NCBI GenBank assembly: GCA_017520425.1
Contig: JAFXFO010000038.1
Span: 1 to 42,728 of the forward strand
Source of the DNA: Lachnospiraceae bacterium
GTDB taxonomy: Bacteria; Bacillota; Clostridia; Lachnospirales; Lachnospiraceae
DNA length: 42,728 nt
Direction: 5' to 3'
Part shown: piece by piece, positions 1,665-37,280 of the stretch
Position numbering within the stretch: position 1 is the stretch's first letter
Layout: each line of letters starts with the position of its first letter
Translations under genes and position numbers: made by a program
The notes under the pieces: model-generated
What the model was told of the DNA's origin: nothing
The model's input: the letters and a program-made list of their open reading frames with translations, nothing else
The model's database searches: none

Positions 1665-1893
1665 ATGATTTGCTTATTTGTACCCTTGAAACTCTTTCAA
1701 CTATAGGCAATAGGGACATAATTTCCTACAAGCAGGTCTTGGAAAACGTCGGCCCTTAGTGAGGTAAAGCCGCTTGCGGCTTCGAACTTAGTGCCGCTAC
1801 GTTTTCCACGAAGTGAGAACGCCCTGCGGTAGGATGTTATGTTCCTAATTGCCTATTTCCAGAGATGTATCAGAGTACAAATAAGCAAATCAT
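1665..1893 (+). repeat. nested-palindrome intergenic element, copy 1
   Basis: Between two convergent genes lies a 229-base structure of nested inverted repeats. Outermost is a perfect 19-bp arm pair (1665-1683 with 1875-1893), then a 9-bp pair ATAGGCAAT/ATTGCCTAT (1703-1711 with 1848-1856), then TCCTAC/GTAGGA (1724-1729 with 1829-1834). Inside are GGAAAACGT/ACGTTTTCC (1741-1749 with 1799-1807), CGGC/GCCG (1750-1753 with 1793-1796), a hairpin AAGCCGC-TT-GCGGCTT (1767-1782) and a GT-GAGA-AC tetraloop (1813-1820). The core matches copies at 16029-16167 and 37039-37280, including CTTAGTGAGG, CTTAG, ACGTTTT and CCTGCG, all on the plus strand. Arms differ between copies but each stays self-complementary. 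No protein is encoded. Identity is unknown. Confidence 0.88.
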
Positions 1894-15978: not shown

Positions 15979-16028
15979 GATTTATATCCTCTTTCTGGTG
16001 CAGATGCACCATATGTTATGTTGTGTAA

Positions 16029-16167
16029 GAGATTGAATGATATATACTCCTTTAAGCAAGGCCTTGAAAATCGTCGGTTCTTAGTGAGGTTCTTTCGAAC
16101 TTAGAACCGTTACGTTTTTCACGGAGCGAAAGCGTCCTGCGTAAGGAGTATATATTATGAAAATCTC
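16029..16167 (+). repeat. nested-palindrome intergenic element, copy 2
   Basis: This copy lies between pgk and tpiA inside the glycolytic operon. Outer GAGATT/AATCTC (16029-16034 with 16062-type partner at 16162-16167) is followed by a perfect 13-bp pair, ATATATACTCCTT/AAGGAGTATATAT (16040-16052 with 16143-16155). Inside are TGAAAA/TTTTCA, CGGTTC/GAACCG (near 16075-16080 and 16104-16109), a hairpin GTTC-TTTC-GAAC (16089-16100) and a GC-GAAA-GC tetraloop (16126-16133). CTTAGTGAGG, CTTAG, ACGTTTTT and CCTGCG are shared with the other copies on the plus strand, which here is antisense to the operon. It is the shortest copy because its inner hairpin is reduced. Confidence 0.85.
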
Positions 16168-16173
16168 GTAATT

Positions 16174-37038: not shown

Positions 37039-37280
37039 AAAAGGAGTCCCTGTTTCGTTCGCTGGAATATTTACAAATAATAAGACGATTGGGAATATAA
37101 CTTCCTACAAGCAGGTCTAGCAAAACGTCGCCCCTTGGCGAGGTATTAAGCCGAACTTGTTCGGCACGAGCCTAGTGGCGCTACGTTTTGGTCGAAGCGA
37201 GAGCGCCCTGCGGTAGGATGATATATTTTCAATCGTCTTTTGTACATGTGGGTCCAGCGAACGAAACAGGGACTCCTTTT
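37039..37280 (+). repeat. nested-palindrome intergenic element, copy 3
   Basis: This copy lies between two convergent genes. The outer arms are a perfect 27-bp inverted repeat (37039-37065 with 37254-37280) with A4 and T4 ends, so the pair is also a good bidirectional terminator. Next is AAGACGATTG/CAATCGTCTT (37082-37091 with 37230-37239), then TCCTAC/GTAGGA (37103-37108 with 37213-37218), CAAAACGT/ACGTTTTG, CGCC/GGCG, a hairpin GCCGAAC-TT-GTTCGGC (37150-37165) and a GC-GAGA-GC tetraloop (37197-37204). The core is most like copy 1 (CCTACAAGCAGGTCT and CCCTGCGGTAGGATG shared). No frame of useful length is seen. Confidence 0.9.

Follow-up and report, generated by a model that had tools for sequence, protein, structure and literature searches.

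Three palindromic elements in the window

The window is a stretch of 42,728 nucleotides (positions 1 to 42,728 of contig JAFXFO010000038.1 in the Lachnospiraceae bacterium assembly GCA_017520425.1). It carries three copies of a palindromic element (Table 1), all of which fall in intergenic gaps according to ORF calls. Copy 1 is neighbored by an ORF with a YgjP-like match and an ORF with a T2SSE match, and copy 3 by a convergent pair matching Cellulase (GH5) and MurJ. An initial annotation of this DNA had reported the three copies, and their positions are confirmed: a single covariance model, R1, built from 18 cores of the window's own genome (alignment A2; the three window copies and 15 others), matches all of them on the plus strand. 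A comparison of occupied and empty sites, which that annotation had suggested, was informative: in the relative genome G092 the sites of copies 1 and 2 carry no element. The copy 1 insert falls within 1655-1908 by this comparison. Copy 2 had been located correctly but not delimited correctly (16029-16167); comparison with the empty site gives the longer insert listed in Table 1. RNA folding of copy 1 gave -109.2 kcal/mol (z -13.3) and DNA folding -60.3 kcal/mol (z -12.0), and none of 200 shuffles reached either value.

Table 1. Coordinates of the three element copies and their parts in the window
Feature	Position	Strand	Basis
Copy 1, whole palindrome with 19-bp outer arms	1665..1893	+	Sequence reading, model match, empty site, fold
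Copy 1, conserved core, 138.3 bits	1713..1845	+	Covariance model R1 match
Copy 1, apical hairpin CTTAGTGAGG...CGAACTTAG	1755..1791	+	Sequence reading
Copy 1, side hairpin AGTGAGAACG, GNRA-type loop GAGA	1812..1821	+	Sequence reading; family pattern
Copy 2, insert, between ORFs matching Pfam PGK and TIM	15997..16173	+	Empty-site comparison
Copy 2, conserved core, 118.7 bits	16037..16158	+	R1 match
Copy 2, apical hairpin CTTAGTGAGG...CGAACTTAG	16080..16104	+	Sequence reading
Copy 3, with 27-bp outer arms resembling a bidirectional terminator stem between convergent genes	37039..37280	+	
Copy 3, conserved core, 132.7 bits	37092..37229	+	R1 match
Copy 3, apical hairpin CTTGGCGAGG...CGAGCCTAG, a variable hairpin inside it	37134..37175	+	Sequence reading

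The copies share a branched fold with strong covariation

The core motif named in the initial annotation is real and reads, in order, AAGCRGG, a stem, CTTAGYGAGG, CTTAG or CCTAG, ACGTTTT, a GNRA-type loop and CCTGCG. The fold common to the copies consists of an extended paired arm, a branch that bears a small hairpin with a GNRA loop, and an extended inner stem. This inner stem contains an invariant U.U mismatch and a tandem G.A/A.G step, and its tip varies. The conserved core contains no T run. We aligned 44 divergent cores out of 58 non-redundant ones (alignment A4; 14 with long apical loops were omitted, the long L001 was kept), and the U.U mismatch and the tandem G.A/A.G step are kept in all 44. 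A CGYC motif sits within the paired inner stem (columns 41-44). Across the 27 pairs tested (outer stem 6, inner stem 18, tip 1, side hairpin 2), 91.7% of 1187 cells are paired, and sliding the partner by 1-3 columns lowers this to 31-41%. Both sides have changed at 22 of the 27 pairs; such cells number 193 versus 56.4 in shuffles, with none of 500 shuffles as high. The covariation is thus very strong and nearly all Watson-Crick. The compensatory changes described earlier for three copies are therefore a family-wide property, and the proposed selection on folding is supported.

Since the 58 cores had been filtered for a GNRA-like hairpin, a filter that 109 of 114 copies pass, we took the GNRA frequency from 124 unfiltered copies. 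Here, the side hairpin is readable in 117 (7 are unreadable), its loop is GNRA in 116 of these, and a pyrimidine is never seen at the third place of the loop. Extra hairpins (AAGAATTGCTTCGCAATTCTT and similar) are found at the tip or next to the GNRA hairpin in L016, L021, L026 and L028 of the own genome.

A large family in Lachnospiraceae

Covariance-model searches of the genome and its relatives, another of the checks suggested, gave 39 R1 matches for the own genome; counting it, 42 of 61 genus genomes have one match or more. Two of the 61 reached 55 scored candidates, so that their counts are lower bounds. With 150 candidates scored in each, the relative genome G017 (3.6 Mb) has 147 matches and G043 has 45. 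In many gut Lachnospiraceae, copies per genome run from a few to more than 100. The window copies are thus by no means the only ones, and the outcome named beforehand as speaking against the proposal, three copies without covariation, was not seen. Plain blastn returned 27 pieces in the own genome and, over 40 relatives, one weak 28-base match (2 of 41 genomes including the own); it is nearly blind in relatives, and covariance models were therefore needed. A broader model, R2, run on a 216-genome sample of the class, matched six genomes (own included), all of the window's taxonomic family, apparently Lachnospiraceae, and one genome of that family is among those listed without a match. The apical-hairpin pattern occurs in at least 120 stretches of GTDB contigs; among the 80 matches listed, nearly all are titled Lachnospiraceae or genera of that family, and one in Pelagibius comes without the remainder of the core.

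The apical hairpin (CTTRGYGAGG...CGARCYTAG) was also found without long arms (L101, L118, L129, L140, L154, L166, L172, L174 and others), often in tandem about 44 bp apart and close to the starts of genes or next to tRNA genes. Of 95 hairpins scored as arm-less, 27 have a second tandem G.A step, some of the 95 being big elements clipped by a contig end, and Rfam gave no match over the arm-less apical hairpins. Inverted pairs of elements, 5' end to 5' end, are common in G017 and G043 (e.g. L076-L085), with a spacing of 77-311 bp in 18 pairs read from the match list; by eye, 8 of 10 pairs fetched combine one of each of two subtypes.

The element is mobile

Besides copies 1 and 2, G092 is without the element at the sites of L009 and L015, and its L025 site is empty except for 6 nt. 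One element of G092 has an empty corresponding site in the own genome. The PGK-TIM gap that holds copy 2 contains no element in G008, G129 and G131, whereas G048 and G074 have oppositely oriented elements there. These comparisons together show that the element is mobile.

Two junctions are clean (L009 and copy 2), and neither has a flanking repeat of 3 bp or more. Among the other five insertion sites compared, four have 6-26 unaligned bases and one, L010, reads as a possible inner deletion, its outer arms being present in G092 and the centre missing. L024, L028 and L029 of the own genome resemble deletion forms.

In L246, compared with L272 (aligned column 4557), the insert end reads as an inverted copy of flank bases present in the empty site, and so does the insert end near 1627 in L009 (6-8 bases across the two cases). 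Copy 2, L015 and L025 show no sign of such a copy. With two suggestive cases against none at these three sites, we make no claim that the flank is copied inversely upon insertion. Where one G092 insertion has its empty counterpart in the own genome (L353 17296-17321), the site holds a small palindrome, GAATTATTCTGAATAATTTC; a preference for hairpin targets is possible, given this palindrome and the position of copy 3 in a terminator-like stem.

Outer arms vary between copies and match within them

The arm of copy 1 (TGATTTGCTTATTTGTACC) recurs in diverged form in other own-genome copies, and a diverged outer arm, TTTGCTTATTTGTAC, is common to several of them. The 27-bp arm of copy 3 forms a terminator-like stem (AAAAGGAGTCCC.../...GGGACTCCTTTTT), and a relative has a plain hairpin (AAAACTCCCATT.../...AATGGGAGTTTT) after the homologous ORF. 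This arm thus looks like a resident stem, likely that of a predicted terminator. The outer arms of L009, L015, L285 and L312 were matched in no other copy by inspection. The view that the window arms are all unrelated does not hold, although unshared arms do exist elsewhere; the observation of variable terminal arms around a conserved core is correct, but some arms are common to several copies and one seemingly belongs to a terminator. We considered whether unshared arms are palindromes that pre-existed in the target and rejected this for L009 and L015, whose arms are absent from the empty sites and arrived with the insert; for copy 3 it is likely.

An arm fits its own partner best in 34 of 42 G017 copies, with a median score of 23 versus 6, for an arm stretch that was picked after weaker ones, and in 14 of 17 own-genome copies. 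Other arm stretches are weaker (8 of 17 in the own genome, 21 of 42 in G017), and a further G017 stretch, lying beyond most G017 arms, gave 8 of 42.

We also compared copies at the same locus. Between the own genome (G000) and G092, compensated changes in the arms are visible by eye at L012/L280 and L017/L282. The letters of a core tract at L017/L282 match another copy, and this core difference looks like a tract swapped in from there. In nine pairs of copies from corresponding loci of G017 and G043, within blocks that agree at 91-96%, the base pairs comprise 501 unchanged, 50 with a single change, 10 with a double Watson-Crick change and 11 with a double non-Watson-Crick change; the non-Watson-Crick states counted for single changes are A-C 17, G-U 11 and other 30. 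Beyond these nine, two G017 elements are missing or incomplete in G043. In-place compensation does occur, yet it is incomplete, as the 50 uncompensated changes exceed the 10 compensated ones and 11 non-Watson-Crick doubles come in addition.

Pairing chemistry and gene orientation

The initial annotation had left it between folding as RNA and as single-stranded DNA. In an RNA under selection, G-U pairs should be better tolerated than A-C pairs. In the inner stem and side hairpin of A4, we counted 879 Watson-Crick, 4 G-U, 11 A-C and 29 other cells and one gap, which places G-U at 4/923; the less well aligned outer stem has 195 Watson-Crick, 11 G-U, 12 A-C and 46 other cells. In a small control of 14 tRNAs taken from the loci of the elements, acceptor stems have 8 G-U in 98 and no A-C, and T stems 3 G-U and 1 A-C in 65. 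The difference between the element and the acceptor stems is significant (Fisher p 2e-6). Isolated mismatches in the outer arms are G-U 35, A-C 28 and other 31, against 3752 matches. The counts thus scarcely show the expected tolerance, and a folded DNA strand is favored. Within 38 nt of the hairpin, isolated mismatches are G-U 24 versus A-C 8 (p 0.007), a bias that the aligned-core count did not repeat; the excess agrees with single-strand folding in this polarity, also as RNA. An RNAalifold table has about 30 G-U cells and one A-C cell, counted by eye, for pairs chosen by the program itself, and our conclusions rest on the isolated-mismatch and A4 counts instead.

Simple ORF calls placed 98 elements relative to genes (co-sense 39, co-antisense 27, convergent 18, divergent 14), with a further 12 inside a called ORF. 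There is little orientation bias (39:27, p 0.18), and convergent context is found for 18 of 98 elements versus 97 of 698 background gaps. This gene context fits mobile DNA. The scarce G-U pairs and the weak orientation bias therefore tip the choice toward DNA, while the GNRA loop, an RNA habit, and the near-hairpin G-U bias speak for RNA.

Search for a transposase partner and for a named family

A Y1_Tnp (PF01797) match is present in 20 of 61 genus genomes, including that of the window, which has one Y1 gene and 39 R1 matches. None of the seven genomes with at least 40 R1 matches (73-94% complete) has a Y1_Tnp match, and the hairpin pattern occurs at none of 21 Y1 loci searched with their flanks. 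We thus set aside a resident Y1 partner (RAYT, IS200/IS605) for the high-copy genomes, and with it the earlier suggestion of an IS200/IS605 relic, at least as far as a resident partner is concerned.

Rfam at gathering thresholds gave no match in the window. Around element loci it gave 11 matches in 16 loci and 1 in 18 loci, none over an element in these 34 loci, and a search around copy 1 with E up to 10 gave four weak matches. A literature search by keyword and motif letters found no description in titles and the starts of abstracts (preprints and most subscription papers lay outside its scope), and among the motif-string matches listed none concerns bacterial repeats. The Rfam scan that had been suggested thus found no well-described Rfam family, the statement that no named family is recognizable stands, and the idea of a HEARO-like RNA is not supported.

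Interpretation

The family is a variant of the small palindromic mobile repeats that is real, large and well structured. We consider it to be, with a probability of roughly 0.5, a non-autonomous palindromic mobile family of about 120-250 bp, scattered over the intergenic DNA of Lachnospiraceae, that is recognized as a folded strand, most likely of DNA. The scarcity of G-U pairs and the small orientation bias favor such a mobile element over a functional RNA. A candidate enzyme would recognize the strand in its folded form, most probably as a hairpin of single-stranded DNA or as a cruciform, and would move the element without target duplication. Arm complementarity may be kept at the DNA level by recopying one arm from the other (template switching in a hairpin) or, alternatively, through movement via a fold-back intermediate. 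In either case, the arm sequence would drift between copies while the arms within a copy stay matched. It is a tentative and rather doubtful extension of this account that the family is a new kind of mobile DNA, which would travel as a folded single strand, have its arms remade from each other at each jump or replication, and be moved by an enzyme other than a resident Y1 transposase. If the DNA reading is true, strong covariation can arise naturally without RNA, which bears on the use of covariation as evidence for functional RNA, and the family would point to the existence of a mobilizing enzyme.

The most serious competitor, a lesser but real possibility, is a structured RNA family. Here, a putative transcribed core would act as RNA (in an RNP, ribozyme-like or as a retro-mobile RNA), and selection on its folding would produce the covariation. 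The branched fold, the almost invariant GNRA loop, the invariant U.U and tandem G.A positions, the very stable RNA fold of copy 1 and the excess of G-U over A-C near the hairpin all agree with it. The scarce G-U pairs compared with tRNA acceptor stems and the little orientation bias relative to genes argue against it, and tandem YGAR steps and GNNA loops are stable in DNA as well.

An ordinary MITE, in which a DDE transposase would recognize terminal inverted repeats and the interior would happen to be unusually palindromic, would likewise be mobile, short, non-coding and intergenic, and the arm TTTGCTTATTTGTAC common to several copies could be such a repeat. We find this unlikely, as the centre is conserved rather than the ends, four copies have arms matched in no other, and the two clean junctions carry no repeat of 3 bp or more. 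Still less probable is a REP/REPIN-like element moved by RAYT or another Y1 (HUH) transposase that works on hairpins of single-stranded DNA: folded-strand recognition, a mismatched hairpin, no target duplication seen, the inverted pairs in G017 and G043 and the one Y1 gene of the own genome are compatible with it, but the empty result in the seven highest-copy genomes and at the 21 Y1 loci speaks against it. Fixed transcription terminators or attenuators evolving in place would be intergenic, and copy 3 does lie within a terminator-like stem, but insertions absent from relatives contradict this as a full account, the gene context is near background and the conserved core lacks a T run, which makes this explanation highly improbable.

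Comparison with known systems

REP/REPIN elements are short, palindromic, high-copy, intergenic and structured, are thought to be moved in trans and can occur in pairs; REPs of the RAYT GTAG and CGTC families measure 20-40 bp and have an unpaired GTAG or CGTC tag (main text of PMC3733652). Clostridi-, Eubacterium, Roseburia, Butyrivibrio and Firmicutes are absent from that main text, whose passages show no clostridial case, and the two mentions of Clostridium in PMC2267715 are both table rows. Our family resembles REP/REPIN in being short and palindromic, high-copy, intergenic, structured and found in pairs. It differs in that its elements are 120-250 bp long and branched, with variable long arms, in that its CGYC is paired rather than a tag, and, as to a RAYT, in that the seven highest-copy genomes have no Y1 match.

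HEARO and omega-RNA elements are mobile and structured and often have no ORF. The family is similar to them in mobility, structure and size, but gives no Rfam match in the window or over the elements in the 34 loci. Bacterial MITEs and ERIC/IRU-type repeats are, like our elements, non-autonomous, hairpin-forming, intergenic and mobile. In MITEs the terminal repeats are conserved and the target is duplicated, whereas our family conserves its centre, varies its arms by compensated changes and shows no duplication at either clean junction. Integron attC sites are recognized as a folded single DNA strand, with stem letters that vary and pairing and unpaired bases that are kept. The family shares with attC a stem whose letters can change as long as pairing and the unpaired bases persist; unlike an attC site, the element itself is the mobile unit.
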